A stretch of 54,302 nucleotides of DNA from a virus. Both the position numbers and the translations under genes were made by a program. The stretch covers positions 1-54,302 of the IMG/VR virus record IMGVR_UViG_3300042731_006898; one strand, written 5' to 3'. Shown in pieces: positions 8,233 through 48,600 of the stretch (positions are counted from its first letter, which is position 1; every line of letters begins with the position of its first letter). The notes under the pieces were generated by a model that had not been told where the DNA came from, did no database searches, and saw only the letters and a list, made by a program, of their open reading frames with translations.

Positions 8233-8240
8233 GAGTCGGG

Positions 8241-25847: not shown

Positions 25848-26072
25848 TCATTCGTATCCGACCGTCACGTATGCACCTTTCTCGGCCAGGTCTCTCGCCC
25901 TGCCCATGGCGTAGTTGAGCGCCGCCTTACGGTACGTGTATGGGCCCGTTCGACGCCACACCTTCCCGGCATGCACCTCGACCACCCACCATTCCCCGAG
26001 ACGTTCCGGGGCATGCACGAGCAGCCGGAAAGATCCGGCACGGGTCGCAGGACGCACCTCGATATGGCGCAT
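25848..26072 (-). CDS. Hypothetical protein
   Basis: A 74-residue, basic beta-rich product. It begins at the ATG directly after the stop of the small gene at 26073. The C-terminal half has a YTYRKAALNYAMGRARDLAEKG helix, as in small domains that repeat 'AA..YA..RA' helices. No family recognised. It is followed by the promoter region at 25.65 kb. Confidence 0.65.
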   Translation of the reverse strand: MRHIEVRPATRAGSFRLLVHAPERLGEWWVVEVHAGKVWRRTGPYTYRKAALNYAMGRARDLAEKGAYVTVGYE

Positions 26073-26234
26073 TCAGGAGGCCCTAATGACCCAGGTTTCC
26101 CTGGCCCGGGGCCACACCCTGCGAACCTCGGTTCTTACGTCATAGACATGCTGAGAGCAGGCGTGAAAGTACCCGGCGGGGGTCAGCCATCTCTTGACGC
26201 TAGGTCTGCAGCGGCAGCGAGAGCACAATTCCAT
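26073..26234 (-). CDS. Very small Cys-rich basic protein
   Basis: A 53-residue frame, easily missed by gene callers, with a strong GGGAGGTGAATC ribosome site before the ATG at 26234 and a stop abutting the next ATG. It starts MELCSRCRCRP and has a fourth Cys at residue 26, so it could hold zinc. The rest is Arg-rich. The ribosome site and the fit between hairpin and next gene support translation. Confidence 0.65.
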   Translation of the reverse strand: MELCSRCRCRPSVKRWLTPAGYFHACSQHVYDVRTEVRRVWPRARETWVIRAS

Positions 26235-26261
26235 GATTCACCTCCCTTCAAGCATAGATGC

Positions 26262-26297
26262 AAGAGCCCAAGCAGGGCTAGATCTGCTTGGGCTCTT
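26262..26297 (-). terminator. Perfect 14-bp terminator-like hairpin
   Basis: AAGAGCCCAAGCAG pairs perfectly with CTGCTTGGGCTCTT around an 8-base loop, between the stop of the 26316 gene and the ribosome site of the 26073 gene. On the minus strand the stem ends CTCTTGCAT, a weak T-run. It probably ends or attenuates the transcript coming from 31.3 kb and leaves the small downstream gene in a structured leader. Confidence 0.65.
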
Positions 26298-26315
26298 AGG
26301 GCATGGAGTGGCGAA

Positions 26316-26939
26316 TCAGGTGAAGGCTCTTGCTACATCCTCCGGGTCGAAGTCGATGCTCTGAAGCCACCCTCGGAACGTGTCGAGATCCGCTTCTCGA
26401 ACCCACAGATCCGAGATGGTCGAGAACACGTTCGAGGATGTGGAGAACGTCCACAGGATCGGCACGGGAGGATGCACCTCACCCTTGTACAGGGCGTTGT
26501 AGAGGTTCCCGGCAACGACCTTGTAGGACACGGTCGAGTCTGGGTAGCCGGTGATCCAGCCCGTAGCGAACTTCACGAACCCGTGATCCTCAGCCTCGAA
26601 GGCAACCTCGGTGTACCCGCGCCAGGCGTCCTGCCGCACGAACCGTTCGGTCGGCTGCAGAGCCTCCCACCATTCCGGCATCTCCTCGCAGACTTCCGGG
26701 CATTGCACCCAGAACACGGTCTCGTCGTCGTCGTCTGCGTGCTCCTCAGCCTGCAGCCTCTCAGCCTCAGCCTCGGCTTCTTCCTCGGTCTCGTGGTAGG
26801 ACACCACGTACTCGTCGAGGTCGGACCACACGCCGTACCGGTCTTTGGTGAACTTGACCGCTTCGGGCTCCTCCTCCGAGAAGCGAGCCACCATTGACGG
26901 GTACTGCTCCTCCGACAGGTAGAGGTCGTATTCGATCAT
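26316..26939 (-). CDS. Acidic hypothetical protein
   Basis: The 207-residue product from ATG at 26939 (ATGA overlap) is very acidic in the middle (TEEEAEAEAERLQAEEHADDDDE). A beta-rich, aromatic C-terminal half follows. The charge pattern is compatible with a DNA-mimic or protein-binding role, but this is speculative. Last gene of the transcript before the perfect hairpin. Confidence 0.7.
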   Translation of the reverse strand: MIEYDLYLSEEQYPSMVARFSEEEPEAVKFTKDRYGVWSDLDEYVVSYHETEEEAEAEAERLQAEEHADDDDETVFWVQCPEVCEEMPEWWEALQPTERFVRQDAWRGYTEVAFEAEDHGFVKFATGWITGYPDSTVSYKVVAGNLYNALYKGEVHPPVPILWTFSTSSNVFSTISDLWVREADLDTFRGWLQSIDFDPEDVARAFT

Positions 26940-27202
26940 CGGGCGTTCCCCCTCACCTCGTCTGTGATCTCGTTGACGTAGTCCCGAATGGGCTGTGGGG
27001 CATTCGCTACTGCACGCTCGTGCATCAGAGCCCATTCCTCGGCCTGCTCCTCGGAGGGCAGGATCCCACCCGAGATATCGAAGTCGGCGCCCTGGTCGAT
27101 CACGTGCGTAACGACCGTTACATCGGACGGCCCGGTGATCTTCACCTCGGTGCCGTAGTCGGGGTGCCGGTTGATGAGCACCCACACCTTCTTCTCAGCC
27201 AT
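26936..27202 (-). CDS. Hypothetical protein
   Basis: An 88-residue product: beta strands at the N-terminus (KKVWVLINRHPDYGTEVKI) and a helical C-terminal half. It overlaps both neighbours. No domain recognised. Confidence 0.65.
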   Translation of the reverse strand: MAEKKVWVLINRHPDYGTEVKITGPSDVTVVTHVIDQGADFDISGGILPSEEQAEEWALMHERAVANAPQPIRDYVNEITDEVRGNAR

Positions 27203-27416
27203 CAGTTCTCCCCTCTGGGTAGACGGTGTCGATCACAGCCTGCATGAACGCATCGTCGTCGTCCGTCCAGGGCACACGCCCTTCAAAGTACCTGCCAGCC
27301 TTCCGTTCAACCCAGGTGAGCACATCGCTCATATCGAGTGGTGCTCGCCACGCCGGCCTGCGCCAGGCATCCTGCCGTTTGCCCAATTCGACGAGCACCT
27401 TCCGCTGTTCTTCCAT
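27195..27416 (-). CDS. Hypothetical protein
   Basis: A 73-residue product, basic at the start and acidic at the end (PWTDDDDAFMQAVIDTVYPEG). It overlaps the next gene by 8 bases and is separated from the upstream gene by 4. No known family. Confidence 0.6.
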   Translation of the reverse strand: MEEQRKVLVELGKRQDAWRRPAWRAPLDMSDVLTWVERKAGRYFEGRVPWTDDDDAFMQAVIDTVYPEGRTDG

Positions 27417-27420
27417 TCGC

Positions 27421-27651
27421 TCATCCTCCCCTCATGCTGTCCCGCACGGCCACGTAGAAGGCACTGAGAGCCACTGTGCCGCTCTCTGTGGGCTTCCCGT
27501 GCTCTACCCACACCTTGTACTCCGGTGTCCACTTCCAGGGCTTCCTGAGGGCATACAGCAGCGTCTCAGCACCGATGATGCTCAGGCTGTAGAGCACCTC
27601 CAGAAAGTCGAGGAGTTCTTCGTTGCAGCCCTGTCCGTACCATTCGCTCAT
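27421..27651 (-). CDS. Hypothetical protein
   Basis: A 76-residue helical product from ATG at 27651 behind GGAGG (5-base spacing; an in-frame GTG lies 15 bases earlier). It contains ELLDFLEVLYSLSIIGAETLLYAL and many Trp/Tyr. It is the first gene after the hairpin at 27709. Confidence 0.65.
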   Translation of the reverse strand: MSEWYGQGCNEELLDFLEVLYSLSIIGAETLLYALRKPWKWTPEYKVWVEHGKPTESGTVALSAFYVAVRDSMRGG

Positions 27652-27708
27652 GTTTGCCTCCTTCACCTCCTTGAAGGACCGCTAACCGGTGTGCTGTCAA
27701 GCACCGTC

Positions 27709-27732
27709 GGCCACACCATTGCTGATGTGGCC
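27709..27732 (-). terminator. Small hairpin after the 27741 gene
   Basis: GGCCACA pairs with TGTGGCC around a 10-base loop just downstream of the 27741 gene and before the next ribosome site. No T-run. A partial terminator or RNA-stabilising stem. Confidence 0.4.
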
Positions 27733-27740
27733 TGCGCTGC

Positions 27741-28226
27741 TCACACCACATGCACCCGCAGGATCCGGGTCAGGGGATAGTCGAACCGTTCGCCGGTCGC
27801 CTCCCCATCCTCGTCGGTCACCACACCACGCAGCCTGGGGCTGCTGCCGCCCTCCACATGCGACAGTTTCACGTTCATGGTGCGGCCGTCCCGCAGGGTC
27901 ACCTCTGCGATGTATCCACGCCAGCGGGCTGTGATCTCCCGGTCGGCCTGAACGGTGCCGAACGAGTACAGGGGCCCTCCGACACCCGAACCGATACGGT
28001 GCAGAGCCTCAGCCACACCAGTAGCAGTCTCCAGACTTGGCGACTCGAACGTGACGTTGAAGTCGGGCAGGATCTCCTCGTAGGTGTCGTCCCCGATCTG
28101 CTTCTCCATGCTCAGCCACACCCGATAGGTGATGGCGTGGTCGGAGCAGCGGACCAGCCTACGTTCGCCGTCCACGACCGTCTCGTAGCACTGGCAGCCG
28201 GGTCCGAACGGTGGTCTCGTCTCCAT
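27741..28226 (-). CDS. Hypothetical protein with CxC start
   Basis: The 161-residue product starts at the ATG at 28226 (TGATG overlap). It has GPGCQCYETV near the N-terminus and a C-terminal half made of many short strands (beta barrel-like). Single-copy, no recognised domain. It ends a tightly coupled set running from 31.2 kb. Confidence 0.65.
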   Translation of the reverse strand: METRPPFGPGCQCYETVVDGERRLVRCSDHAITYRVWLSMEKQIGDDTYEEILPDFNVTFESPSLETATGVAEALHRIGSGVGGPLYSFGTVQADREITARWRGYIAEVTLRDGRTMNVKLSHVEGGSSPRLRGVVTDEDGEATGERFDYPLTRILRVHVV

Positions 28227-28729
28227 CAGAACAGCCCTTCGTCGAAGTCCACATCCACCCTCGACCACCAGGCTTTCCGCCACTTGTCGCCGGGGCTTTC
28301 TGGGGTGCCGTGCTCGCACTTGTGGTAGGTGTAGCGGGCCCCGGTGCCTTCCCCCTCGGTGCCCCACGATTCGAGGTGGGCCGAGCTCCGAGACACATCA
28401 AGGACATGCCAACGCTGCTCGTACCCGTCTTCGGAGCATTCGTCGAGCACCTTCTCACACCGGCTGCAGATGATGACCTGATAGGGCAGCCGAATCTCGC
28501 GGCCGTCCCGGTAGTCGTCATACTTGCCGGAGAACACCTTCGCCCAGGCCAAGTCTTCGAGCCTGACCGGCACCGGCGCCGAATGCCCGTGGCAGAAACC
28601 GTCCCGGGGCTCCACCTCGAACAGCAGGTAGCCTTCCGGGATCTCGGCTGGTGGGCCGTCCAGCACCTGCAGATCGGCCAGCCTGGCCGGTGCCGCCATC
28701 GGTGACTCCAGACGCATCAGTACGAACAT
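28226..28729 (-). CDS. Hypothetical protein with Cys pairs
   Basis: A 167-residue product from ATG at 28729 behind GAGGAGGAGG. A CSRCEK pair sits mid-protein, with further Cys at CHGH and HKCEHG, so one or two zinc sites are possible. Acidic C-terminus (SRVDVDFDEGLF). It overlaps the upstream gene by 13 bases. Function unknown. Confidence 0.7.
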   Translation of the reverse strand: MFVLMRLESPMAAPARLADLQVLDGPPAEIPEGYLLFEVEPRDGFCHGHSAPVPVRLEDLAWAKVFSGKYDDYRDGREIRLPYQVIICSRCEKVLDECSEDGYEQRWHVLDVSRSSAHLESWGTEGEGTGARYTYHKCEHGTPESPGDKWRKAWWSRVDVDFDEGLF

Positions 28730-28920
28730 GCTGCCTCCTCCTCGTTCCACAGGATCCGCTGCTGGGCCATGCCGTACAGCCCGGATCCTCGCACCATGGC
28801 TGCCACCACGTGTCCGCCGTTGCAGCGGTCAACGATCCGCACGTTGAAGTATCGGGGATCGGCCCGCAGCCGGTCGGCCAGGGCCTCTGCTTCGGCCAGG
28901 GTCATCCGGTACCTACGCAT
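28717..28920 (-). CDS. Small protein with EAEALADRLRAD helix
   Basis: A 67-residue product: an N-terminal MTLAEAEALADRLRADPRYFNVRIV helix-strand unit followed by two more strands, like a small degron-tag or adaptor domain seen in actinophages. It overlaps the upstream stop by one base. Function unknown. Confidence 0.65.
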   Translation of the reverse strand: MRRYRMTLAEAEALADRLRADPRYFNVRIVDRCNGGHVVAAMVRGSGLYGMAQQRILWNEEEAACSY

Positions 28921-29276
28921 CAGTAGGACTCCCGGATCTCGTAGCCTGCCTTCTCCAGCAGCCTGGCGATCTCGTCGAGCGTGTCGGGGCTCCACTCCTG
29001 ACCGTCGAGGGCTGCGACGATCCCATCCAGCGGCAGACCGGCACGCCGGTACAGGTCTCGCAGACCGGCCTTCAGGGTCGGCAGGTGGTAGTTCCCGTAC
29101 AGCAGGTACGGAACGTGGGCGTGCTGCACGAGGTGAGTGTGGTACCACCTGCTGTCTCCGAGGCTGGTTGACCACAGCACCCACGAGTGCGTGTTGGGGT
29201 CTTCTGTGGTCGAGTCGGGCAGAATGGCGACAGCCTCCCCGCCCTGCTTCTCGATATGTTCGATGATCTCACGCAT
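28920..29276 (-). CDS. Hypothetical protein
   Basis: A 118-residue product from ATG at 29276 behind GGGGAGG. Alternating helix-strand content, no cysteines. The C-terminal portion ends SPDTLDEIARLLEKAGYEIRESY, the same general shape as the following small gene, so they may be fragments or partners. No family recognised. Confidence 0.65.
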   Translation of the reverse strand: MREIIEHIEKQGGEAVAILPDSTTEDPNTHSWVLWSTSLGDSRWYHTHLVQHAHVPYLLYGNYHLPTLKAGLRDLYRRAGLPLDGIVAALDGQEWSPDTLDEIARLLEKAGYEIRESY

Positions 29277-29682
29277 GCTGCCTCCCCATGTATTCCCCGG
29301 CGTGGTAGGAGCAGGGCTCCTTCCGGTCGTCGCATGTCGGGCACACCCACTCACCCTGCCGGATCTTCTGAGTGCCGATCAGCAGGATCGTGCCGTCGTG
29401 CTCCATGCCACGGCGCCCCAGATCGTCCCAGAAGGCCCACTCGTCGAGGCTCACCCGGCAGTCCATGCCGGAACGCAGCAGCCCGGGTTCGCTCACCTTG
29501 CCGGTGGCTGTGTTGAGCACCGCAGACCACACCCGATACTCAGTCCACGTGTCATCGACCCAGCGGTCGAGCCCATCCTCACACAGCCCGCACATCAGGT
29601 CGGCCCCGCCCGGGGTGCCGACCGGTGTGCCATGCACACAGTGCCGACCGTAGATCACCTGTTCCCACAGTTCTTCGCTCAT
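29269..29682 (-). CDS. Hypothetical zinc-binding-like protein
   Basis: A 137-residue product from ATG at 29682 (ATGA overlap). N-terminal HCVHGTPVG...CGLCEDG and C-terminal CPTCDDRKEPCSYH give two clusters of likely zinc ligands around a beta-rich centre. The C-terminal cluster resembles the CPTCx(n)CxxH motifs common in actinobacteria. Confidence 0.7.
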   Translation of the reverse strand: MSEELWEQVIYGRHCVHGTPVGTPGGADLMCGLCEDGLDRWVDDTWTEYRVWSAVLNTATGKVSEPGLLRSGMDCRVSLDEWAFWDDLGRRGMEHDGTILLIGTQKIRQGEWVCPTCDDRKEPCSYHAGEYMGRQHA

Positions 29683-29876
29683 TGCCACTCCTTCAGCGAC
29701 TCCAGCAGCCCCTCCGACTGCTCGTAGCCGAATCGGATCACCGCCCGCAGCGCGTCCGCCGAACCGAACCCGCACTTGCGGCGCAGCAGATCGGCTACCG
29801 CCAGGTATTCGGCTTTGATCTCCTCGTCCTGCAGCAGCCACAGCACCTTGTCGTCGAACTTCTGAATCTTGCCCAT
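29679..29876 (-). CDS. Small helical protein
   Basis: A 65-residue all-helical product (VLWLLQDEEIKAEYLAVADLLRRK). Weak resemblance to small ribbon-helix or tetratricopeptide-like helices; no firm call. Coupled to the downstream gene by ATGA and separated from the upstream gene by 8 bases. Confidence 0.6.
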   Translation of the reverse strand: MGKIQKFDDKVLWLLQDEEIKAEYLAVADLLRRKCGFGSADALRAVIRFGYEQSEGLLESLKEWQ

Positions 29877-29884
29877 CGCTCCCC

Positions 29885-30139
29885 CTACCAGCCCCAGCCC
29901 ATCTCGGGCGGCTGGCTGTCGTCTTCGTCCGGTTCTTCAAACACAGCGTCTTGGCACTGCTGGCAAAGCCCGGAGATCCGGTACTCCTGCCTGCTGAGCC
30001 TGTCCCGAAAGTCGGTCGCCGGGCCACCACATCCGATCGGTGGCTGCACGCACCGATCCCCTTTGATTGCGGTTGTGCGGCCTGCCATCTGTTCGAGGAG
30101 CCCTTCGATTGCGGGCGCCTTGCGGGTCGGTTCTGCCAT
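29885..30139 (-). CDS. Conserved Cys-rich protein (PPIGCGGP...CQxCQD type)
   Basis: The 84-residue product from ATG at 30139 contains RTTAIKGDRCVQPPIGCGGP, FRDRLSRQEYRISGLCQQCQDAVFE. Two Cys pairs form a zinc site. I recall this pattern as a small conserved protein in actinobacteria and their phages, annotated only as hypothetical. It overlaps the preceding stop by one base. Confidence 0.75.
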   Translation of the reverse strand: MAEPTRKAPAIEGLLEQMAGRTTAIKGDRCVQPPIGCGGPATDFRDRLSRQEYRISGLCQQCQDAVFEEPDEDDSQPPEMGWGW

Positions 30140-31305: not shown

Positions 31306-32011
31306 GTCGATCGTGCGGCGCCACGCGCGGGCCGCCCTCGAAAACTCCCCAAGGCCCCCAGGTTCGCCCATGAAAGTCTGTCGGCATCTGCCTCATCCTT
31401 TGGTCCGTAGGCCCCGACCATTTGTTCCGACACTCTGTCGGAAAACCCTCCAGGGCCCCTATAGGGTGCCCTGGCAGGATATTCCAGGGCCCGGAATAGG
31501 GCAGCAGGCAGCCAGGGCAGGCAGCAGACACAGCCAGCCCAGCAGCCTCCTCTATATGGCAGCGAACAGGCAGCAGGATCCTCCTCCAGCAGCGAGGGCA
31601 CAGCAGGAGGGCTCTGCAGTCAGGGCAGGCAGCCAGCAGCCCAGAGGCAGCCAGCCAGGAGCCCTCCAGGCAGCCCGGAGCCAGCCCTGCCCAGCAGGCA
31701 GCAGGCAGCAGCGAGCAGCCCAGACAGCCCAGAGGGCAGCCAGCGAGGGCAGCGAGGGCAGGAGCCCTCCAGGGCAGAGCCTGCCGACAGCGACAGAGCC
31801 AGCCCAGCAGAGGAGCCCAGAGCCCTCCAGGCAGCAGCCAGCAGCCAGCAGCAGAGGCTGCCAGCAGCCAGGAGCCCAGCAGAGCCCTCCAGGAGCCCAG
31901 CAGCAGCCTGCTGGCACGACAGCCACAGCAGGAGCCAGGGCAGGAGCCCTCCAGACACAGCAGAGCCCAGAGCCCTCCAGGAGGGCTCCGGGCTCTAGCC
32001 TCTAAAGGCGC
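31306..32011. repeat. Untranslated, low-complexity stretch with iterated GAGCCCTCCAG
   Basis: About 700 bases without a gene I trust. 31,329-31,376 repeats the 25.7-kb upstream element. 31,450-31,474 is a near-perfect palindrome (CCAGGGC, CCCTATAGGG, GCCCTGG) and 31,480-31,498 has TATTCC-7-GGAATA. From 31,500 onward the sequence is almost entirely CAG, AGC, GCC and CTC words, with six exact GAGCCCTCCAG copies between about 31,655 and 31,980. Long open frames exist on both strands only because TA is nearly absent. It could be a replication origin, an RNA gene or decayed coding DNA. Confidence 0.5.
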
Positions 32012-32056
32012 GACAGAGCCCGGGCTCTGGGCACAGCCCAGAGCCCGGGCTCTGTC
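32012..32056 (-). terminator. 21-bp perfect hairpin with 3-base loop
   Basis: Two 21-base arms, each containing the 16-bp palindrome CAGAGCCCGGGCTCTG, pair perfectly around loop ACA. It begins 9 bases after the stop of the 32065 gene and ends near a TTT. As RNA it is far stronger than needed for termination. As DNA it could extrude as a cruciform, and each half is itself palindromic. Confidence 0.7.
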
Positions 32057-32064
32057 TGCCTGCG

Positions 32065-32712
32065 TTAGTCAGCCCTCCCGCGTACTGATATCCAGAGGGC
32101 AGCAGCATGCTGGGCAGGCTCCTGCCTCAGAGCACGAGCACGCGCTATCCAGACAGCCTCTAACAGTCTGTAGAGACCATGTGGCCCTGCTCTGTCTGCC
32201 CTATCCAGTGCGTGCCTATCGGCATCGCTGGGCTGCCTGCCCAGCAGGATGCCGAAGTTCCATGTGTCTATCGGCACGACAGCCCAGAGCCCTGCTAGAG
32301 CCAGTCCGAAGCGCGTAACTTTCGGGGCCCTGGTGCCGACAGCCTGCAGAAAGTTCCCAGACTGCCACAGCCTCTGCACTGCTGCCCTCTGGGCTGCAGT
32401 GCCGACAGCAGCAGCAGGGCCCTGCCGGAAGACAGCCCGGGCTCTGGCTCTGTTCTGCTGCCATCCAGTGCGCGCACTGTGTATAGCCACAGTGCCCAGA
32501 GCCACAGCAGGAGGCAGCCCAGCAGCCTCCTGCATGATGCTGCTGGCTGCCTCTGGATACCATGCTCTGCCCTGCTGCCAGTGCTCCGGGCTGACTGCCT
32601 CCTCTGCTGCCAGTAGGTTACGCAGAGCCCTCCTCTGGAGCCCTGCCACAGCCTGCCCTGACATTGTGCGAGGATAGACAGCCTCCAGACTGATACTCTG
32701 GGCTGTCGTCAT
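32065..32712 (-). CDS. Phage hypothetical protein of a 'WYPxA...IDTW...WxxVRG' type (island)
   Basis: The 215-residue product from ATG at 32712 (ATGA overlap) reads AWYPEAASSIMQEAAG, SARTGWQQN, then VPIDTW and a C-terminal AALWISVRGRAD. This order matches a widespread small phage family with SPRTxW, a CVDxW or IDRH motif and a terminal WVxVRG, of unknown function. The homology shows that the gene is genuine, even though its codons strongly avoid CpG and favour CAG, CTG and AGG. It is the last gene of the island. Confidence 0.75.
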   Translation of the reverse strand: MTTAQSISLEAVYPRTMSGQAVAGLQRRALRNLLAAEEAVSPEHWQQGRAWYPEAASSIMQEAAGLPPAVALGTVAIHSARTGWQQNRARARAVFRQGPAAAVGTAAQRAAVQRLWQSGNFLQAVGTRAPKVTRFGLALAGLWAVVPIDTWNFGILLGRQPSDADRHALDRADRAGPHGLYRLLEAVWIARARALRQEPAQHAAALWISVRGRAD

Positions 32713-33050
32713 TCTGCAGCCTCCTGCACGACAGCCCAGACAGCAGAGCCCGGGCTCCATGCTGTGCCGATGTAGGCTGCTGCTGTTCGCTCAGCAGTCA
32801 CTAGGATGCTGTGCTCTCCCAGAGCCCGGGCTGCCTCCTGCACTGCCACCACGACAGCAGCAGCATGCTCTGGAGGGCAGACAGCCTCCAGAACAGCAGC
32901 AGGCTCCTGGCACAGTGTGCCCTCCTCATCCAGCCACCATCCTGCTGCCAGGATGATGCTGCAGCCTCCAGCCAGAGCAGACACAGCCTCTGCTGCTGCC
33001 TCTGCTGCTGCTGGCACTGTGTAGATTCTCACTCGCTCGTGCTCCTGCAT
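32709..33050 (-). CDS. Hypothetical protein (island)
   Basis: A 113-residue Ala-rich product from ATG at 33050. The beta-alpha pattern (RVRIYTVPAAAEAAAEAVSAL, CSIILAAGWWLDEEG, AVLEAVCPP, SILVTAERTAAAYIG) resembles a small conserved actinophage protein in which a strand-helix-strand unit recurs. Codon choice is typical of the island. Coupled on both sides. Confidence 0.7.
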   Translation of the reverse strand: MQEHERVRIYTVPAAAEAAAEAVSALAGGCSIILAAGWWLDEEGTLCQEPAAVLEAVCPPEHAAAVVVAVQEAARALGEHSILVTAERTAAAYIGTAWSPGSAVWAVVQEAAE

Positions 33051-33052
33051 GG

Positions 33053-33403
33053 TCACAGCCTCCAGCCCTCTACTGCCTCCAGCCCTAGTGTCTGGATGCT
33101 CTGCTCTGTCAGCCCTCGCTGCTGCAGGGCAGCCAGGATCCTGCTCCTGATAGCCTCCAGCCCTCCGCGCTCCTCCCAGCATCGGCGGCAGAGCACGAAA
33201 GCAGAGGAGGGCTCCTCTGTTGTCACCAGAGCAGCCCTCCTCCAGTCGAGTACCGTCTCACAGCCTCTGCAGAACAGAGCCCTGCCGACAGCCCAGCGCA
33301 GAAGATTACGCTGCAGGATCCTCTGCGCGTAATCTTGCAATTCGGCGGCAGCCTCCTCTGCCAGGATGGCAGCAGGCTCCTGCTGCTGCTGTTCGCTCTC
33401 CAT
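33053..33403 (-). CDS. Zinc-binding-like protein (island)
   Basis: A 116-residue product from ATG at 33403 behind AGGAGG. It starts MESEQQQQEPAAIL and has CRGCE and CRRC pairs about 30 residues apart, a likely zinc ribbon, followed by a helical C-terminal region. Codons avoid CGN for Arg in favour of AGG/AGA in most places. Function unknown. Confidence 0.7.
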   Translation of the reverse strand: MESEQQQQEPAAILAEEAAAELQDYAQRILQRNLLRWAVGRALFCRGCETVLDWRRAALVTTEEPSSAFVLCRRCWEERGGLEAIRSRILAALQQRGLTEQSIQTLGLEAVEGWRL

Positions 33404-33483
33404 GGTGCGGCCTCCTCTGCTCGCTGGCACCATGCAGCCTCCAGAGCCCTAGAGCCCTGGAGGCTGCCTGCTGACAGCAGGCT

Positions 33484-33720
33484 CTAATCTTCTGCCTCTG
33501 TCACATCCAGACAGAGCCCTCCGGGCTGATAGATACGCTCGGCGCCGTCCTCCGGGCTGCTAATCCAGCCCAGAGCCAGCAGCCTCGAGGCTGTGTCAGG
33601 GCTGACAGAGCCAGGGCAGCCAGCCTCCTCGAGGGCTGTCGGCACTGCCAGCAGCAGTGAGAGCAGCAGCCCAGCGAGCAGCCCTGCCAGCATGGAGAGA
33701 GCGAGGGCCCTGCCTACCAT
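33484..33720 (-). CDS. Small single-pass membrane protein (island)
   Basis: A 78-residue product with one N-terminal hydrophobic helix (about 5-28), then a soluble SPDTASRLLALGWISSPEDGAERIYQPGG segment resembling a small winged or SpoVT-like fold. The ribosome site GGAGGAGG lies upstream of ATG 33720. It is separated from the next gene by 80 bases that I cannot assign. Confidence 0.65.
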   Translation of the reverse strand: MVGRALALSMLAGLLAGLLLSLLLAVPTALEEAGCPGSVSPDTASRLLALGWISSPEDGAERIYQPGGLCLDVTEAED

Positions 33721-34007
33721 GATGCAGCCTCCTCCAGCCTGCCAGCATCATGCTGCCGCACTGTGGCAGCCTCTACTGCTGCCTCTATCCTCTGCAGGCT
33801 GTCCCAAGTCAGCGAGCAGCCTGCAGGCTCCATGCTGGGATCCTGGCTGCCCTCCTGCCCTGGCAGCATGCTCCAGAGTGTGACTGCTGCCTCTGCCTGC
33901 TCTGTCTGCGCGTAGCAGACTGCCACGTGCCCTCCCGGCAGCCTGACAGACTGCAGCCCTGGAGCCTGCCTGCAGTGCTCCTCCAGCGTGCTCCTGCTGA
34001 TAGTCAT
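33714..34007 (-). CDS. Hypothetical protein (island)
   Basis: A 97-residue product from ATG at 34007 (ATGA overlap): an N-terminal helix, then SVRLPGGHVAVCYAQTEQAEAAVTLW, an alpha/beta segment. It overlaps the membrane protein gene by 7 bases. Composition as for the rest of the island. No domain recognised. Confidence 0.65.
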   Translation of the reverse strand: MTISRSTLEEHCRQAPGLQSVRLPGGHVAVCYAQTEQAEAAVTLWSMLPGQEGSQDPSMEPAGCSLTWDSLQRIEAAVEAATVRQHDAGRLEEAASW

Positions 34008-34996
34008 ACTCCAGCCTCCTCCTCTGTCTGTAGATACTGCTCCGGCATCCAGGCTGCACACTGCTCGCAGAGCCTGCCGATATAGCGGCAGGGCACAGTG
34101 CCGATACGCTGGCAGCGAGCACCATCCTCCTGCCCTGCTGTGCAGGCTCTGCAGAGGCTGTTCTCACAGCCACAGAGCCCAGAGGGCTCCTCTGCCTGCT
34201 CCTGGAGGCTGTCTGCCTGTTCTGCCAGTGCGCGAGCAGCAGCGAGGGCAGCAGCCTCTGCCCTCCTCTGCTCTGCTGCCTCTGCTAGTTCGGCCCTGGC
34301 TGCTGCCAGGGCTGCAGCCTGCCTCTGCTGCTCCTGCCTCTGCAGGGCTCGCAGTCTGTAATGGCAGGCAGGGCAGTCCTCATCCTCTGCGAGAATCCTG
34401 AGCCTGTCTGCCTCCTCTGGGCAGTAGTGGCTCTCCATCCTCTGCTGCCTCTGCTCCTCTGCCTGCTGCACATCATCCAGGGCTGCAGCCAGGATGCTGG
34501 CTGGCACTGCTGTGGGGAATGCAGCCAACAGAGGATCCTCTGTGGTGGCATCCTGCCCGGGCAGTCTGGGCAGGATGTGCACTGCTGCTCCATGCTCTGC
34601 CGATGGTGGCACAACAGCCAGGAGCCCTCCCCCTGGCAGTGCGTGCACTGCCCTGCCTGCTGCCTCCATCCTCTGCAGTGCCACACTGCGACGCAGTGCC
34701 CTCTGCTCTGTTGTGACAACAGGCTCTGTCCACATAGCAGAGCCAGCAGGCTGCTCTGCCTGCTGGCTGCTGCCGGGCTCCTCCTGGCTGCTGGGCTCTG
34801 CGAGTCTCCAGTGTGCCCTGCCGACACACTGCACGAGCCCTCTGCGTTCCAGGCTCTGCATGATCCTGACTGTCTGAGACTGGCTGCCATATTCCCAGGG
34901 CACTCCTGGGCGCCAGTCTTTGGTGGCTCTGCTCTGCATCATCCTGAGAGCAGCCCTTTGGGCTGTTCCCAGAGGCTGCTGTGTCGTGCTCTCCAT
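34004..34996 (-). CDS. Large protein with winged-helix N-terminus and Cys-rich C-terminus (island)
   Basis: The 330-residue product from ATG at 34996 (GGAGGAGG upstream) has three parts. Residues ~10-65 look like a winged helix with a W-x-PG...TVRIMQSLERRGLVQ pattern. A middle region (to ~210) is Ala/Gln/Glu-rich with heptads. The C-terminal ~120 residues carry CPAC, CGCENSLCRAC and CRYIGRLCEQC. It could be a DNA-binding regulator with zinc domains. It is the first and largest gene of the island and the most extreme in codon bias. Confidence 0.65.
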   Translation of the reverse strand: MESTTQQPLGTAQRAALRMMQSRATKDWRPGVPWEYGSQSQTVRIMQSLERRGLVQCVGRAHWRLAEPSSQEEPGSSQQAEQPAGSAMWTEPVVTTEQRALRRSVALQRMEAAGRAVHALPGGGLLAVVPPSAEHGAAVHILPRLPGQDATTEDPLLAAFPTAVPASILAAALDDVQQAEEQRQQRMESHYCPEEADRLRILAEDEDCPACHYRLRALQRQEQQRQAAALAAARAELAEAAEQRRAEAAALAAARALAEQADSLQEQAEEPSGLCGCENSLCRACTAGQEDGARCQRIGTVPCRYIGRLCEQCAAWMPEQYLQTEEEAGV

Positions 34997-35097
34997 GCTG
35001 GCTCCTCCTCCTGCCCTGCTGTCTGCTGGGCTCCTGCCGCCGATGCTAGCGAATATGCAGAGGCTGTCCAACACTGCACGACAGCAGCAGCCTCCAT
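34939..35097 (-). CDS. Doubtful short frame next to palindrome
   Basis: A 52-residue frame begins at ATG 35097, immediately below the perfect 7-1-7 palindrome at 35,100-35,114, and overlaps the 34004 gene by 58 bases. No ribosome site is visible and the sequence is low-complexity, so translation is doubtful. I list it only because of its position. Confidence 0.25.
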   Translation of the reverse strand: MEAAAVVQCWTASAYSLASAAGAQQTAGQEEEPAWRARHSSLWEQPKGLLSG

Positions 35098-35099
35098 GG

Positions 35100-35114
35100 T
35101 GAGAATGATTCTCA
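35100..35114. promoter_or_regulatory. Perfect 7-1-7 palindrome, Fur-family-like box
   Basis: TGAGAAT-G-ATTCTCA is an exact inverted repeat with one central base, the 7-1-7 form of a Fur/Zur-type operator. It lies upstream of the first island gene. No metal regulator is encoded in the phage, so any binding would involve a host protein. A chance hairpin cannot be excluded, though its A/T-rich content contrasts sharply with the island around it. Confidence 0.45.
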
Positions 35115-35693
35115 GCAGAGGAGCAGCAGAGGAGCCCGGGCTGCCGATATCAGAGCAGTGCAGCAGTGTGGCTCCTCCAGCCCTGCCATCCTCTGCATTC
35201 AGTCTGTCGGCGGCCTCTGTAGGCACTGTGCCCTACTGCTGCACACTGCTGCTGTTCGGGCCCTGACTGCCACGAGCACGAGCACGACAGCGAGCAGAGC
35301 AGGGCTCCTCCTCCTCTGCCTGCTGCTGTGCCCTCTGGGCTGTGCCCTCTGGCTGTGCCCTCTGTCTGCTGGCTGACTGCTGGCAGGCTGCACGAGCAGC
35401 AGAGGAGCCTGCCTGCTGCTGCTCAATACAACAGCAGAAACAGCAGCGAATTATGCTCTATGTTCTAGCATGCTGACACAATAAAACAGCAGCAGACAGG
35501 GCACCATATAGGGGAGCACGTTGGCAGAGGTTACCAGCCCGGCCCAGCCCCCCCGCCCCACCCTGCCCCCCACCCAGCGTGAAGCACCTCGCGCAATTCT
35601 GGCCCAAAATCACAGCCATCGAACGTATGTTCGGAACGGGAAAACCTTCCCTACCAGGCCACACCCCGCTACCTTCCCCCCTGGAGGTAGGGA
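35115..35693. other. Untranslated divergent region between island and late block
   Basis: About 580 bases without a convincing gene. 35,425-35,490 is an A/T-rich patch (for example CATAAT on the minus strand), the best place for promoters of the leftward island. 35,540-35,580 is a C-rich run. CGAAC-GTAT-GTTCG at 35,620-35,633 shares TCGAACGTA with a site at 41,181. No clear -35/-10 pair was found for the rightward late block. Confidence 0.5.
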
Positions 35694-35924: not shown

Positions 35925-36963
35925 ACTGAACCTCGAAGCGTTCGCCAACTTCGAGGCCCTCCGCAAAGAGCACAGGCGACTCATCCGCAAACACAACGAC
36001 TTCGTCAACTCCCGCATCGACCTCGAGAAGGTCATCGCAGACACCGCCAGAGCCTCCTTCTCGGCCCTCAAACCTCCCCGGCCGGCCCAACCGACCACCG
36101 ACCGACGCACCAAAGGGGAAGAGGTAGCCATTGTAACCTGCGCCGACTGGCAATTGGGCAGAATCACCCCCGACTACAACATCGAAATAGCCGAACAACG
36201 AATCAAGCAATACGCTGAAAAGATCCGCACAATCACCGACATACATAGGGCGGATCATCCCGTGAAAAAGGCACACGTTTGGCTGTTGGGAGATATAGTC
36301 GATGGCGAGCAAATCTTCCCGGGCCACCCCTACGAACTCGACAGCAGTCTCGTAGACCAAGTTGTAACCAACGGTTCCCGCATCCTCCGAAACTTCCTCT
36401 ACGAACTACTTTCCTACTTCCAGGAAGTCCGGGTTATCGGGGTGGTCGGAAATCATGGCCGAATAGGGCGGGTAGGCGCCTTCCATCCAGACACGAACGC
36501 CGACAGGATGCTCTACCTGGTCACCCGCGAATACTTCAAGGCGGCCGGCGAGAAACGCATCGCCTGGGAGATCCCTCGAGCCCACAAAGGCGACCGAGGC
36601 TGGTACCACGTAGACCTCGTCGGCAACTACCGGTCACTCCTCGTCCATGGGGACCAGTTCCGGGGCGGCAACAGCTATGCCGGCCTCCCGTTTTTCTCCT
36701 TCTCCAAGAAGGCACTTTTCTGGAGGGACATGGGGGTGCTCGGGGACATGGACCCGTTCCAGGACATATGGTGCGGCCACTGGCATCGGGTCGCTCGAGT
36801 CCCGGTCGGCTCCATGGTCGTGCGGGTGTGCGGCACCCCCATGTCCACCGACCCGTGGTCGATCGAAACCCTCTCCGCTTCAGCCCGCCCCGCCCAAGTT
36901 CTCGCCTACTGTGAACCCCACGACGGCCGAATCACCGCCGAATACGAAGTGAACCTGGACTGA
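35908..36963 (+). CDS. Calcineurin-like metallophosphoesterase
   Basis: The 351-residue protein (GTG start, overlapping the previous stop) carries the dimetal motifs in order: D-x-Q (D80, Q82 where most members have D-x-H), GDxxD (129-132), GNHGR (181-185), VHGD, and GHWH near residue 292. An N-terminal helical extension of ~70 residues precedes the core. Family members hydrolyse phosphodiesters or phosphomonoesters. At the start of a late operon, next to terminase, a DNA-end-processing or nuclease role is plausible. Confidence 0.8.
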   Translation: MAEEHELNLEAFANFEALRKEHRRLIRKHNDFVNSRIDLEKVIADTARASFSALKPPRPAQPTTDRRTKGEEVAIVTCADWQLGRITPDYNIEIAEQRIKQYAEKIRTITDIHRADHPVKKAHVWLLGDIVDGEQIFPGHPYELDSSLVDQVVTNGSRILRNFLYELLSYFQEVRVIGVVGNHGRIGRVGAFHPDTNADRMLYLVTREYFKAAGEKRIAWEIPRAHKGDRGWYHVDLVGNYRSLLVHGDQFRGGNSYAGLPFFSFSKKALFWRDMGVLGDMDPFQDIWCGHWHRVARVPVGSMVVRVCGTPMSTDPWSIETLSASARPAQVLAYCEPHDGRITAEYEVNLD

Positions 36964-37465: not shown

Positions 37466-38227
37466 ATGGTTACTTGGGAGCCGGCACCAGCAGCCCTTTC
37501 TCGGGTCGAAGACGCCCTCGACGACCCGAATATCAACCCGTGGGAACGCCTTCCGGGCGAAACTGCCGCCGCCTACGCCGCTTTCGAAGCCTACCGCGAT
37601 ATGGGGCCCGGCCGATCCGTCCCGAAGGTCATCGACATGGGTCATTCCGGTACTTCGGCAGCCTGGTGCTCCAAGAACCTGTGGGTGGAGCGCTGTAGGC
37701 GCTGGGACCAGCACCTTTCTCGCATCCGCGAGCAGACCTACATCAACGGGATCGAGGAAATGGCCTACCGGCATGCCGAGACGGCCAAAGAAACCCTCGA
37801 GGCCCTCATGGCGCCCGTCAATGAGCTCAACCGCAGAGTCAAAGAAGACCCAGACCGGACACGTGCCGAACTTGATGGGGCTTCGATAGGTAAGATCATG
37901 GAGCTTGCCCAGGCATCCGCTCGGTCCCTACAGTCGGTGATGAACGCAGAGCGCATCTCCCGAGGTTTGCCGACCGAAATCTCCAAGAAGGACGAGGAGC
38001 ATGTCCACAGAATCGAGTACGGCGACCCCGAGCGGCTTGCGGCTACCCTCGAGACGTTTGCTCGAACAGGTGTCCTCGATGCCCTCATGGCAACGGGAGG
38101 AACTGGCCAAGTCATTGATGCCGAGGCTTACGAGTTGGATCCCGATAGCCCCCTGGCCGAAGCAGATGGCCTTCCTGATGGCTCCCCAGAAGGAGATTCT
38201 GTACGGGGGAGCGGCGGGGGGCGGTAA
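37466..38227 (+). CDS. terS: Terminase small subunit
   Basis: The 253-residue protein precedes and overlaps TerL. The N-terminal half has an HTH-like region with a GHSGTSAAWCSKNLWVERCRRWDQH segment typical of DNA-recognition subunits, then a long helical oligomerisation region (EEMAYRHAETAKETLEAL). The acidic Gly/Asp tail is encoded in sequence that is also read as the TerL N-terminus. It would recognise pac/cos DNA and load TerL. A weak ribosome site precedes the ATG. Confidence 0.8.
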   Translation: MVTWEPAPAALSRVEDALDDPNINPWERLPGETAAAYAAFEAYRDMGPGRSVPKVIDMGHSGTSAAWCSKNLWVERCRRWDQHLSRIREQTYINGIEEMAYRHAETAKETLEALMAPVNELNRRVKEDPDRTRAELDGASIGKIMELAQASARSLQSVMNAERISRGLPTEISKKDEEHVHRIEYGDPERLAATLETFARTGVLDALMATGGTGQVIDAEAYELDPDSPLAEADGLPDGSPEGDSVRGSGGGR

Positions 38228-39428
38228 GTCCGAGGCTGGTCTCGCCGCCTTCGCCCAATATGCGGACATTCCGGGCTACAAGGGTGGGGTTTTTCGTCGC
38301 ACCTACGCCGACCTCAAGAAACCGGGCTCTCTGATCTCCCGATCCAAGGAATGGTGGCAGAACACTGATGCCCGCTACTCCTCCCAGGATCACGCATGGT
38401 ATTTCCCGTCCGGTGCGGTACTCCAGTTCGGCTATCTCGAGCATGAGGACGACAAGTACCGTTACCAGTCCTCCGAATACCACTTCATCTTCTTCGACGA
38501 GCTCACCCAATTCTCCAAGACCCAATACGTCTACCTGATTGGCCGTACACGCCGTCTCACCCGCGAAACGATGCTCGAGAAGTACGGCATCGACATGGAG
38601 ATCCCGCTCCGCATCCGTTCAGCCTCCAACCCGGGCGGGATCGGCCACGCTTGGGTGAAGGAACGGTTCATCGGCACCCGCTCCAAGCCTGTTCGCCATC
38701 CGAACCGCCTGTACATCCCGGCCACTCTCGAGGACAACCCGTCCCTCGACCAAGAGTCCTACCACGAGAACCTGATGGAGCTCGACCCGATCACCCGGGC
38801 GCAACTCCGCTACGGCGATTGGGAATCCGACCTGGCTGGCAACAAGTTCCAGGAGGACTGGTTCGTCAAACACGAGTCAGTCCCGCACAACCAAAGGTTC
38901 CAGACGATCATTCGCTATTGGGACACGGCAGCTACGGAACCGCGCAAAGGCGAAGACCCCGACTTCACGGTCGGCACCCTCTACGCCCTCGACTTCAACA
39001 ACGAGTTCTGGGTGCTGGATGTCTGCCGGTTCCGGGGCACACCCGCCGAGAACGAGGAGCGGATCCTCGCCATCGCACGCCGGGACGGGGTCGGAGTCGA
39101 AGTCTGGATGGAGCAGGAACCGGGCGCCTCGGGCAAACACATGATCGACCACTATCGGCGCAACGTGCTCTACGGGTTCGCCTTCTATGGGCTCCGCACC
39201 ACCGGCCAGAAGGAGGTCCGGGCCAATCCGGTCTCCTCAGCCGCTGAAGGCCGCAACATCCATGTCGTGTTCGGGGAATGGAACGACGCCTGGTTCGACG
39301 AGCTCCGCATCTACCCGAAAGGCTCCCACGACGATCAGATCGACTCCCTCTCCGGGGCCCATTACATCCTCACCCGCAAGATGAAACGCCTCCGAGGCCG
39401 GAAAGCCCGGCAAGGGTTCGGCTACTGA
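38001..39428 (+). CDS. terL: Terminase large subunit
   Basis: The 475-residue packaging motor has Walker A GGAAGGGKS (about 69-77), Walker B FIFFDE (about 155-160) and a C-terminal RNase H-like nuclease with RYWDTA and a terminal GSHDDQIDSLS. The ATG at 38001 follows GAGGAG; ATGs at 38079 and 38118 are alternatives. With the first start it overlaps TerS out of frame by 227 bases. The TerS stop falls in the Walker A codons, so at least a ~110-base overlap is unavoidable. It cuts and translocates phage DNA into the head. Confidence 0.95.
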   Translation: MSTESSTATPSGLRLPSRRLLEQVSSMPSWQREELAKSLMPRLTSWIPIAPWPKQMAFLMAPQKEILYGGAAGGGKSEAGLAAFAQYADIPGYKGGVFRRTYADLKKPGSLISRSKEWWQNTDARYSSQDHAWYFPSGAVLQFGYLEHEDDKYRYQSSEYHFIFFDELTQFSKTQYVYLIGRTRRLTRETMLEKYGIDMEIPLRIRSASNPGGIGHAWVKERFIGTRSKPVRHPNRLYIPATLEDNPSLDQESYHENLMELDPITRAQLRYGDWESDLAGNKFQEDWFVKHESVPHNQRFQTIIRYWDTAATEPRKGEDPDFTVGTLYALDFNNEFWVLDVCRFRGTPAENEERILAIARRDGVGVEVWMEQEPGASGKHMIDHYRRNVLYGFAFYGLRTTGQKEVRANPVSSAAEGRNIHVVFGEWNDAWFDELRIYPKGSHDDQIDSLSGAHYILTRKMKRLRGRKARQGFGY

Positions 39429-39646: not shown

Positions 39647-41146
39647 GTGGCCGTTCCCCTCGAGATCCCGGAAGATGAGCGGCTGACCGAAGACGAAATC
39701 TTCGCCATCCTCTCCTACGCCTCCACCGAACTCACATCCGAACTGGAAGGCATGGAGGTCTATCGGGACTACTACGACAACGAGCAGCCCCTCAACTACA
39801 CGACCCTCGAGTTCGTGCGGGCATTCGGGGAGCAGTTCGAAGGGTTCTCGGCCAACTGGTGTGAGGTGGTGGTCGATGCGGTCGAGGAACGAATCGACCT
39901 GGACCGCATCCTGTACCGCGACGAGAACGGTGAAGTGGCCGAAGAAGCCTCCGACCAGATCTGGACGACACTCCACCTGAACCGGTTCGAAACCCTCCAG
40001 AACGAGCTCTACAACCGGGCCCTCGTCGAAGGGCGTTCGGCTGTGATCGTGTGGCCCGACCCGGTCCTCGGCGCTCGAGTGGACTTCCAGGAACCGCAGA
40101 ATGTGCTGGTCGTCTACGACTCCGACGACTCCCGCAAAGTGTCCTATGCGATCAAGCGGTGGGTCACCAATTCGGGCGAGTCACGCCTCAACCTGTACCT
40201 GCCGAACTACCTGTACAAGTTCACTTCGGGACGCCGCCTTTCCCTCGTCGGTGACACCTCCGACCGCAACTCTGAAGCGACCGGCTGGGTGCCTCGCCTG
40301 CCCGAAGAGACCGGTGATCCTTCGTGGCCGCTCCCGAACCCGTTCGGTGAAGTCCCGGTCGTCGAGTTCTTCGGCCGTAAGAACCGCTCCGAATTGACGA
40401 ACATCACGCCCCTGCAGGACATGCTCAACAAGATGATCGTCAACATGAGCGTCACCGCCGACTTTGCTGCCTACCGCCAGAAGTATGTGGTGTCATCCAA
40501 CGCAGAACCGGACGGCGGTTGGAAGTCCTCCCCCGGATATGTGTGGCATCTGATGCCGGAAGTAGATGTGGAAGGGAAGCCCCTCCCCACTCAGATCGGT
40601 TCCCTCGAAGAGTCCTCCCCCGAAGGGTACATCCAGATCATCGAAGCGATGCTGCAGATGATTACCCAGATCTCCAAGACGCCGACCTACTACTTCTTCC
40701 AGACCTCCAAGGCGGGTGGCCGAGGTGACGCCCCTTCCGGCGACTCTCTCCGTGTCACCGAAACGGGCCTCATCAAGAAGTGCGAGAAGCTGATGGAGTC
40801 CTGGTCGCCGGCCTGGGTTCAGGTCGGCCGTCTCATCTGGAAGGCGATCGGCAACTCTGAGCTCCCGGACGTAGGCGAATGCTCCTGGGCCAACCCTCAG
40901 GCCCAATTCATGACCATGCTGCTCGAAGAGGGTCGGCGCATGATCGAAGACCTTCAGCTTCCGCCCGAAATGGCTTGGCGTCATATCGGGCTGTCCGAAC
41001 GGCAGATTCAGGAGGCTCGTGCCTGGCGTGACGAGAACCAGCCTCTCGGCCAGGTGGTCACTCGGGTCAATGTCATCGAAGAGGAACCTGCCCCCGAGAA
41101 TGTGGAGCTCTCACAGTCGGCGGTACCGAATGCCGCAAAGCAGTAG
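39647..41146 (+). CDS. Portal protein
   Basis: The 499-residue protein starts at GTG behind AGGAG. Length, place after TerL and sequence features (FGEQFEGFSANWCEVVVDAVEERID near residue 65; long C-terminal helices) match SPP1 gp6-like portals, which form the dodecameric ring for DNA entry and head-tail connection. It ends in an acidic tail. It is followed by the promoter region before the scaffold. Confidence 0.9.
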   Translation: MAVPLEIPEDERLTEDEIFAILSYASTELTSELEGMEVYRDYYDNEQPLNYTTLEFVRAFGEQFEGFSANWCEVVVDAVEERIDLDRILYRDENGEVAEEASDQIWTTLHLNRFETLQNELYNRALVEGRSAVIVWPDPVLGARVDFQEPQNVLVVYDSDDSRKVSYAIKRWVTNSGESRLNLYLPNYLYKFTSGRRLSLVGDTSDRNSEATGWVPRLPEETGDPSWPLPNPFGEVPVVEFFGRKNRSELTNITPLQDMLNKMIVNMSVTADFAAYRQKYVVSSNAEPDGGWKSSPGYVWHLMPEVDVEGKPLPTQIGSLEESSPEGYIQIIEAMLQMITQISKTPTYYFFQTSKAGGRGDAPSGDSLRVTETGLIKKCEKLMESWSPAWVQVGRLIWKAIGNSELPDVGECSWANPQAQFMTMLLEEGRRMIEDLQLPPEMAWRHIGLSERQIQEARAWRDENQPLGQVVTRVNVIEEEPAPENVELSQSAVPNAAKQ

Positions 41147-45658: not shown

Positions 45659-48600
45659 TGGCTCTGCCTGGCACCATATTCGGCGCTAGCAACACCGGAA
45701 TCGCCAGGGGCAACGCTCCGCCCCTGATGGCCTCCGACGGTGACCTGTGGTACTTCCGTTTCGACGGCACAGCCGGAGATGTAATCGCCTACACCTCAAC
45801 TGACGGTGGACAGACCTGGAGTAGTGGCAACACCTGGTCATACGGTGGCGGCACATTCACTGCCCAAGCCTTCCAGACGATCTCTTGGGTGCAGGATGGA
45901 GACACCGCTCATGTCGTTTGGTACAACACCTCAAACACTGCCATCGAGGTTCGGTACAACACCATCAACCTGTCCACCGGGTCGTGGGGAACCGAACAGG
46001 TCATCGAGAACTCAACGGGCGGCGAATCGCTGTCGAAGGCGCTCCACAAACTTGCGGTCGTCGTTCGCTCCGACGGTGATGTGGTGGTCATCTACGGCAC
46101 CCAGGCCGAGAAGGTCAAAGGTTCGATCGTGTCCAGAATGGCCGCTGCCGTTGACACCGGATCAGGGTTCGGTACTCCAGTCGTCCTGGGTACCGGAGTG
46201 CAGGACGACTTCAACTTCATCGGCGGCACGCTCCTCATGTCGGACGACGACATCGGGGTCATCACCGACTACGCCACCTCGAATCGGCTGACCGAGTTCC
46301 AGGTGTCAGGCTCGTGGACAGGAAGTTACACGAGCGCAGCCAGCACCATCGCTGGTGCAGCACCTATGGGTGTCGGGATGGACGGTCCAGGCACCTACCC
46401 GGCCAGGGTGGGTCTCAAAGTTGGGACGTTCATTCCCGGGTCCATGGAGGAGACCTCTGCACCGTATGACGATGACGGCATCGACACGGTAGCCACCTAC
46501 TCAACCAACGAGTTCCTTTGCGTCGCAGCCGACACCGTAGACGACTACTGGTACGGCGCTTTCCTGTGGCCCTCCAACCAAGACCTCTACTGGACCGTTG
46601 ACACAGGCTCAGGTTGGGGCACGCCTACTCAATGGAAGACAGGAACCTACGGCGGTACCTGGCCTCCGTACTGCAATGTGTTCACTCATTCGTCTGGGAA
46701 CGGTGGAGCTCGGGTCCTCGGAATCGTCTACTACGAGTCCGGCACCGGGATGGTCTACGACGAGGTTGTGATCGCTGCGGGTCCTATTCCGGTCACCCAA
46801 CCTTCGGAAGCCGACTCTTCTCAACCAGCCACCACGCTCAAGACTTACGCCGTCGGGCAGGCTCTGGAAACAGACACCGCCCAGCCTGCCGATGGAGTCA
46901 GGAACTACGCAGCCGGTCAAGCCCTGGAAACAGACTCAGCCCAACCGGCTCAGTCGGGCACTTTCCTTCGGGTATCTGAGGCCACTATTGCGGTTGCTGC
47001 TAATGGTGACGACGGCTATGTGATGAACGACGCCACCTTTGTCTCGGGCGGGTCAGGCATCTATGCGGGGAATGTTGCCAGCAACATCAACGATATGTGG
47101 CTCCGGTTCCCAGGCGCACCCGGCGTGTCGTTCCTTACTGCGTTTCTCAACCTCTACAGCGTTGGCACGGGTGGGGCTGCCCTTCTGAGGGTCTTTGGCA
47201 TTGACGAATCGGACCACAACGCTCCCACAGACCTTTCTTCGTGGGCTGCCGATCATGCCCTTCATACTGCGGCCTCAGTCGATTGGGATGTCGATTGGTC
47301 TTCTTCCGGTTGGTTTGCCTCTCCTGACCTTTCGGACATTCTCAACGAGATACCACTTGCGGTGGGGAATGCCCTTGGCCTTCACGTTGATGATGATGGC
47401 TCATCTTCCCCCGGCGAATACGCTGGTGTCTACTCTTACGAGAACGGTTCCCTCTACCCGACCCTCGACCTCACCTGGATTCTCACCGAACAGGACACGG
47501 CCCAAGAGGCCACTCCGGTCAAGACCTACGCGGTCGGTCAAGCGGTAGAAACAGACTCGGCGCAGGCTGTCTCGGTTGCGAAAACCTTCGGGGTCTACCA
47601 GGCATACGAGATTGATGCCCCTTGGTGGCCCGAGTTTCCTCGCCACATGCCAGTCGAGGCTTCCCTCGATGATGCCGTCACCTGGGGCACGGTATCTAGC
47701 AGACAGAAGATCGCTACTCGGTTCTACATGGACAGTCCCCTTGGGGCTGGTGAGAGTCTTGCGGGTATCAGGGTCCGCCTGGCGAAAGTCGGGACACCAA
47801 CGGATGGCGTGAATGTCTCAATCAGGGCATCCCGTGACGGGGCGAAGTTGGCCGAGGCTACCATCGACGCTGCCGACATTCCCACCTATTCGACCTTCGA
47901 TTACTTCTATGTCGAGTTCGACACAGCCTGGTCTGGGCCTTATTCGCAAGGCTATCTCTACGTTCAGTTTGAGCGTTCAGGGTCGCTGAGTGACTCCAAC
48001 TACTTCGTCTGTTTGAGAACTTCAGGCCAGAAGTTCGATGGGGCGTCGGGTGGACCGAACCCCTACGCCCAGGCTTGGAGTTACTACGGTGTCTGGCAGG
48101 AAGACACGCCAACCTCCCCACTCGCATGGCGTGCCTTTGAGGCTGTTGGTCTGTCCAGCATGGAGAATGCCACGGCAGTTCTCGTTGGTGGGGGAACGGT
48201 TGCCGGGCAGGCTCTGGAGGCAGAATCGGCAAACGCCGCAACAGCCTCCAAGACCTACACGGTCGGCCAAGCCACCGAAACCGACTCTGCTTTCACCGCA
48301 TCGTCGGTCGCCATCGTCCCTGCCAGCCAGTCGGTTGAGACAGACACAGCCCAACCGGCCGCCGCAGCCAAGACCTACTCGGTAGGCCAGGCCACCGAAA
48401 CGGACACAGCCTTCGGCCCCGATCTCGCCATCGGTGTTGGGCAGGCTGTCGAAACCGACACAGCGTTCTCCCCCGACCTGGCCTTCGGGGTCGGGCAGGC
48501 GTTGGAGTCGGACACCGCCTTCTCGCCCGACCTGGCTATCCAACTGGCCTTCTCCCTGGAAACCGACAGCGCCAACGCTGCCACCTCGGCCAAGGTCTAC

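Follow-up and report, generated by a model that had tools for sequence, protein, structure and literature searches.

Why should the leftward operon of a tailed phage be written so largely in a single short DNA word? The locus that raises this question lies in IMG/VR record IMGVR_UViG_3300042731_006898, all 54,302 bases of which were analysed (hereafter the window) and which is known from one metagenomic record. Our best reading is that short DNA words are under a local pressure, specific to the phage, at the early end of this genome, and that the affected segment is exchanged between phages as a module. The element in question was delimited as follows:

31471..35499, no strand: GCAG/CTGC key-word island, the maximal-scoring CAG/CTG segment.

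The first-pass annotation of this DNA had described a CpG-poor, CAG/CTG-saturated island of about 4 kb, and counts in 500-bp windows confirmed it, more sharply than first stated. The sum of CAG and CTG per 500 bp averages 69.9 in the island (minimum 60) vs 18.6 +/- 4.8 outside (maximum 32, n=100), and the observed/expected (o/e) ratio of CpG is 0.31 (maximum 0.51) vs 1.01 +/- 0.11 (minimum 0.78). The hand counts per 60-base line were also correct (11 CAG/CTG at 31,861-31,920, 7 at 34,501-34,560 and 6 CG at 36,001-36,060), while the statement that TA and stop codons are nearly absent overshot: there are 111 stop triplets over the six frames vs 152-175 in stretches of the same size, which is a mild reduction, and 64 TA vs 66-88. 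The borders are sharp and G+C is nearly unchanged. The island is self-similar in its k-mer use and different from its genome in a way that base composition does not explain, with a 4-mer Kullback-Leibler divergence of 0.91 bits vs 0.04-0.06 in control stretches. The loss of CpG is one among many word shifts: ACC/GGT, AAG/CTT and CAA/TTG are 5-10 times rarer, not one of about 57 expected AGCT sites is present, GGCC is found 9 times (49 expected), and the number of distinct 6-mers is 1,490 compared to 2,577-2,868 in equal stretches. Despite the general CpG depletion, a 13-base word, CAGAGCCCGGGCT, built around the palindrome AGCCCGGGCT, occurs in seven copies on both strands between 32,000 and 35,200, and may be an operator.

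The effect acts at the level of double-stranded DNA and neither through codons nor through RNA. It had been placed at synonymous codons only, a view refuted by the following observations: CAG and CTG are found in all three codon phases of the island genes, the bias of the non-coding leader and trailer equals or exceeds that of the genes, and the amino acid use of the proteins is itself bent (lysine accounts for 2 of 949 residues, 0.2% vs 3.2%, alanine for 18% and glutamine for 8%). The codon phases and the non-coding ends rule out codon bias as the cause. Selection at the RNA level was rejected as well, because words on the sense strand of the operon deviate to the same degree as their reverse complements (r=0.92; for example 0.13 for ACC and 0.10 for GGT).

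One word dominates the deviation. When 4-mer weights were added stepwise onto the genome's own statistics, the single enriched word CTGC/GCAG removed 44% of the deviation of the window island and four words removed 67%, whereas the first single depleted word removed just 8%. Each half of the island and its coding part gave the same first word. In a second island, that of contig L142 (see below), enrichment of CGAG/CTCG removed 48% and the first depleted word 4%. Control stretches showed a deviation about 14-23 times smaller. A depletion-only model was rejected, as its apparent match to CAG levels is nearly circular and the stepwise fit shows that enrichment explains far more.

Related phages are odd at the same place, in other words. 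The sister contig L003 shares about 77-82% DNA identity with the window from 35,579 onward, yet its adjacent 860 bp cannot be aligned with the window island and is written in GGCC, CCAA, AAGG and ATTG words, with 41 GGCC sites and a 5-fold depletion of CAG (6 vs 33). A parallel case is contig L142, which is the same contig as L132: around its gene for DUF7178, the family of the last gene of the window operon, it has a coding island saturated with CTCGAG, GAGCTC and AGCT (109 AGCT sites) that is CpG-rich. Contigs L144 and L146 are 81-83% identical to it and the homology stops at the island, where CGAG is found 325 times in L142 (76 expected) and 1 time (40 expected) or 0 times (36 expected) in L144/L146. 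The word profiles of sister islands are uncorrelated (r about 0), so that the idea of “mirror-image” dialects was dropped: the profiles are unrelated and not opposite. Because sisters differ completely at this locus yet are 82% identical next door, their alignments show that it is exchanged or rewritten as a unit. Some DUF7178 operons of other phages are odd too, each with its own vocabulary, and the island site, in unrelated phages as well as in sisters, seems to get its DNA rewritten in phage after phage. As a separate observation, L144 (about 3,400-7,100; also L146) carries a near-identical leader of about 96 bp before each leftward early gene, which contains a ribosome site as well as a hairpin like a tRNA T-arm (CCGGGGGTTCGATTCCCCCGG); L132/L142 has no homology there.

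The window operon and its surroundings comprise the following features:

34997..35499, minus strand: non-coding leader in the same dialect (CAG 83/kb, CTG 56/kb, CpG o/e 0.32)
35450..35479, minus strand: putative sigma-70-like promoter of the leftward operon at the right border, GTGTCA-18-CATAAT, a consensus match only
34004..34996, minus strand: island gene 1, 330 residues, Cys-rich C-terminal part, no family above threshold
33714..34007, minus strand: island gene 2, 97 residues, ATGA overlap with gene 1, no family assigned
33484..33720, minus strand: island gene 3, 78 residues, hydrophobic N-terminus, no family assigned
33053..33403, minus strand: island gene 4, 116 residues, CxxC pair (FCRGC...LCRRC), no family assigned
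32709..33050, minus strand: island gene 5, 113 residues, weak match to PHROG 3543 (E 0.005)
32065..32712, minus strand: island gene 6, 215 residues, last of the operon, profile match to DUF7178 (PF23802, PHROG 3842)
31471..32064, minus strand: non-coding trailer, where saturation peaks (145 CTG per kb, minus strand)
35500..35693, no strand: spacer rich in C-runs that separates the leftward operon from the rightward packaging genes, with L003 homology from 35,579
38001..39428, plus strand: terminase large subunit, in the packaging module adjoining the island
39,647-41,146: SPP1-type portal
26000..30040, minus strand: neighbouring early arm with a mild CAGC/CTGC tilt

All six leftward open reading frames of the island have an ATG start, a GGAGG-type ribosome site and no internal stop, and several are joined by ATGA overlaps. 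The coupled six-gene set is a genuine phage operon, as first described. Gene 1 has no relative in the IMG/VR protein search. The rightward packaging and structural genes start near 35.7 kb and the leftward genes include a helicase and a YqaJ-type exonuclease at 15-21 kb; the nearest relatives of the terminase are those of Gordonia and Methanobacterium phages (about 45% identity). The order of the record suggests a permuted or joined genome. The C-run-rich spacer may be the cohesive-end (cos) or virion-end region. The island is probably the right end of the virion DNA, because it lies between divergent early and packaging modules, next to the C-run, and resembles the genome ends of the Rhodococcus phages Shagrat and Jflix2. 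Its operon is predicted to be transcribed early and is probably early to enter the cell.

The membership of one island gene in a widespread phage family, also noted at first pass, was borne out for gene 6, which matches DUF7178 over residues 27-213 with 59 bits against a cut-off of 27 (Pfam E 7.7e-16). Lys131 and Asp149 are invariant across 30 DUF7178 sequences, as in bifunctional glycosylases, and this pair may be catalytic. The confident structure model (predicted local distance difference test score 90) has the archaeal 8-oxoguanine glycosylase Pa-AGOG as its top PDB fold match, which is weak (probability 0.75, E 0.76), with OGG1 and EndoIII among the next matches; a profile search also placed AGOG first, again weakly (E 0.1), and homologues in Shagrat and other phages carry a DNA glycosylase annotation. 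The protein is therefore possibly 8-oxoguanine-glycosylase-like, within the HhH-GPD superfamily. A scan of the genome collection yielded a single DUF7178 locus. In a rank comparison of the 27 loci with enough flanking DNA against leave-out control stretches, the DUF7178 gene was more deviant than every control stretch in 13 (mean rank p 0.20).

The odd regions fall into two forms, which we keep apart because long repeats dominate some ends and others show no large excess. The terminal arrays of Shagrat, Jflix2 and LeBron are repeat-driven, with 155, 600 and 162 direct 15-mer pairs where about one is expected, while L132/L142, L003 and, for the most part, the window have short-word islands. AT-rich non-coding arrays (ATAGAT/ATCTA, CTATATAG) were also noticed upstream of the terminase in two distant relatives, L077 (about 6,250-7,000) and L078 (about 7,750-8,500). 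The AT-rich word arrays near the terminases of L077, L078 and L054 were set aside as candidates, as they look like ordinary non-coding arrays.

As for palindromes, the words fully absent from the islands of the window, L142, L144 and Jflix2 (at least 4 expected) are eight 4-base palindromes and one other word. A general avoidance of palindromes, tested across the islands, was not found: 6-base palindromes are enriched in the islands of Shagrat (1.59) and Jflix2 (1.25) vs 0.6 outside. Simple restriction avoidance was accordingly rejected as a general cause, as the Rhodococcus ends are palindrome-rich and enrichment dominates in the window. Three further observations concern palindromes elsewhere. 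Outside its island, the window lacks GTCGAC, CAGCTG, AGGCCT, CGTACG, GACGTC and GTGCAC (16-34 expected), a pattern like restriction avoidance; L142, L144 and L003 each lack a 4-base palindrome beyond their islands as well (CATG, AGCT and ACGT, respectively); and the right end of L093 (Yvonnetastic; 47,250-48,137) is dense in the palindromes GGTACGCGCGTACC and GGGTACCCC.

To account for these findings we tentatively favour, at somewhat less than even confidence, selection on word density, sensed at the incoming end by a factor that acts on DNA, with word copying as its main rival. A hypothetical factor, phage- or host-encoded and with a specificity of 3-5 bp, would read the incoming end; selection would saturate the operon with words that the factor accepts and purge those on which it or resident nucleases act; and when the factor or the host changes, a module written in a different dialect would be taken up. 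We prefer selection on word density since import, codon bias and CpG defence do not fit and purging or copying explain parts only; the slight leaning of 26-30 kb towards the island's words further suggests a pressure acting in place. A “functional need for these DNA words” had been among the causes listed at first pass, and its inclusion was right. In a bolder form, which we regard as speculative and unlikely, phages would label the early end, the first to enter, by packing it with a 4-base word peculiar to each lineage and recognised as DNA, which would serve as a self-mark or as a code for loading or protecting that end, and sisters would trade modules of different dialects.

Several points weigh against selection on word density. 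The word-reading factor remains hypothetical, the virion end and the order of entry are inferred, and early expression is predicted. Many DUF7178 loci are ordinary, including that of the Streptomyces phage TinaBelcher and several metagenomic ones, and the island of L003 was sampled over 860 bp only. The 12-mer repeats of the window island (316 vs 132 +/- 26 under an order-4 Markov model) hint at word copying. The islands share no common word or physical property: bendability, scored with the table of Brukner et al., has a z of +7.8 in the window and +2.3 in L142 and is negative in most others, and there is no helical phasing of the words in the islands. Bendability, DNA stability and helical phasing were thus discarded as common features.

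Neutral word copying, in which repeated resection of a linear end and its repair through short-homology copying or slippage spread words on both strands and let each lineage drift to a vocabulary of its own, is possible, though on the unlikely side. It would account for the self-similarity, the strand symmetry, the arbitrary dialects and the non-coding DNA being more extreme than the coding, and it agrees with the long repeats of the Shagrat, Jflix2 and LeBron arrays and with the moderate 12-mer excess of the window; however, L142 and L003 have no clear long-repeat excess over the order-4 model, the window island ends abruptly, with no gradient, at its distal border, and AGCT is absent although it lies one transition from the commonest words. 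More doubtful is a purging of defence sites (restriction sites, protospacer-adjacent motifs of CRISPR, others) from the first-entering DNA that leaves a small vocabulary. The low number of distinct 6-mers speaks for it, as does the preponderance of 4-base palindromes among the absent words, with L142 and L144, whose islands cannot be aligned, both lacking ACGT, GTAC and TTAA. Depletion-only models nevertheless fit the composition poorly, the Rhodococcus islands are enriched in 6-base palindromes, that of L132/L142 is full of CTCGAG and AGCT, and part of the palindrome gap of L142 reaches its other early genes. The first pass had also proposed, more narrowly, selection against a CpG-targeting defence. 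This does not fit, because the enrichment of GCAG/CTGC alone accounts for the composition far better than depletions do; the parallel L132/L142 island is, moreover, CpG-rich.

Recent import of the block from a genome in this dialect throughout would explain the sharp borders and the lack of nucleotide homology to the sister contig inside the island, but we consider it improbable: no source was found, with none of 50,697 phage records matching at the DNA level, no relatives in IMG/VR protein searches and no donor of the same composition genome-wide. The sister and other DUF7178 phages are odd at the same locus, in their own local dialects, within normal genomes, and the neighbouring early DNA of the window leans to the same words, which leaves the import from a CpG-poor genome suggested at first pass without support. 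A chimeric join or other assembly artefact, for which the single metagenomic record might speak, is very improbable given the six intact close-packed frames with ribosome sites, the DUF7178 match and the odd locus in the independent contig L003; as the source of the phenomenon it is unlikely because another IMG/VR record (L133) contains the L132 island too, 99.86% identical.

Odd word use at genome ends is known from mycobacteriophages, where it has had no explanation. Siranosian et al. (2015; PMC4841201) reported terminal regions that are self-similar yet different from their genomes, such as the last 5 kb of the cluster E phage 244 and terminal k-mer blocks in cluster L1 and also in clusters F1, H and O; GC content did not explain the tetranucleotide deviation, 244 had neither long repeats nor a found donor, and transfer or repeats were proposed with no mechanism tested (PMC4841201). 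The window island, probably terminal, resembles these ends in its odd tetranucleotide use beyond GC. It differs from them in being coding and dominated by one 4-base word, in containing DUF7178 and in that its sister uses another dialect. The comparison with phage 244 draws on its published description, and the right end of LeBron (L1), which was checked, is of the repeat-driven form. Shagrat and Jflix2 are like the window in having a minus-strand DUF7178 gene, leftward genes and odd words at their right genome end, but there long repeated motifs and palindromes drive the oddness and the vocabulary is not reduced. The right ends of cluster A mycobacteriophages, where the Pleft region yields an abundant toxic non-coding RNA (PMC5712189), share leftward early transcription from the right end (PMC5712189); in the DUF7178-bearing members examined the non-coding terminal ~500 bp is odd, whereas the DUF7178 gene itself is ordinary or mildly odd. 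The strong absence of some 4-base palindromes recalls the restriction-site avoidance of phages, although palindrome depletion is not the main signal of the window island, which is saturation by a word.

The possibilities are thereby narrowed to an effect that is DNA-level and local, centres on a single 4-base word, shifts the amino acid make-up of the proteins and varies from sister to sister at a constant place. Rhodococcus equi phages and Mycobacterium cluster E and L phages provide cultivable entry points for asking which agents act on phage DNA at its incoming end. The window island is an extreme, coding, single-word variant of the odd terminal regions, and the sister comparisons and the link to DUF7178 are, as far as we have searched, new.

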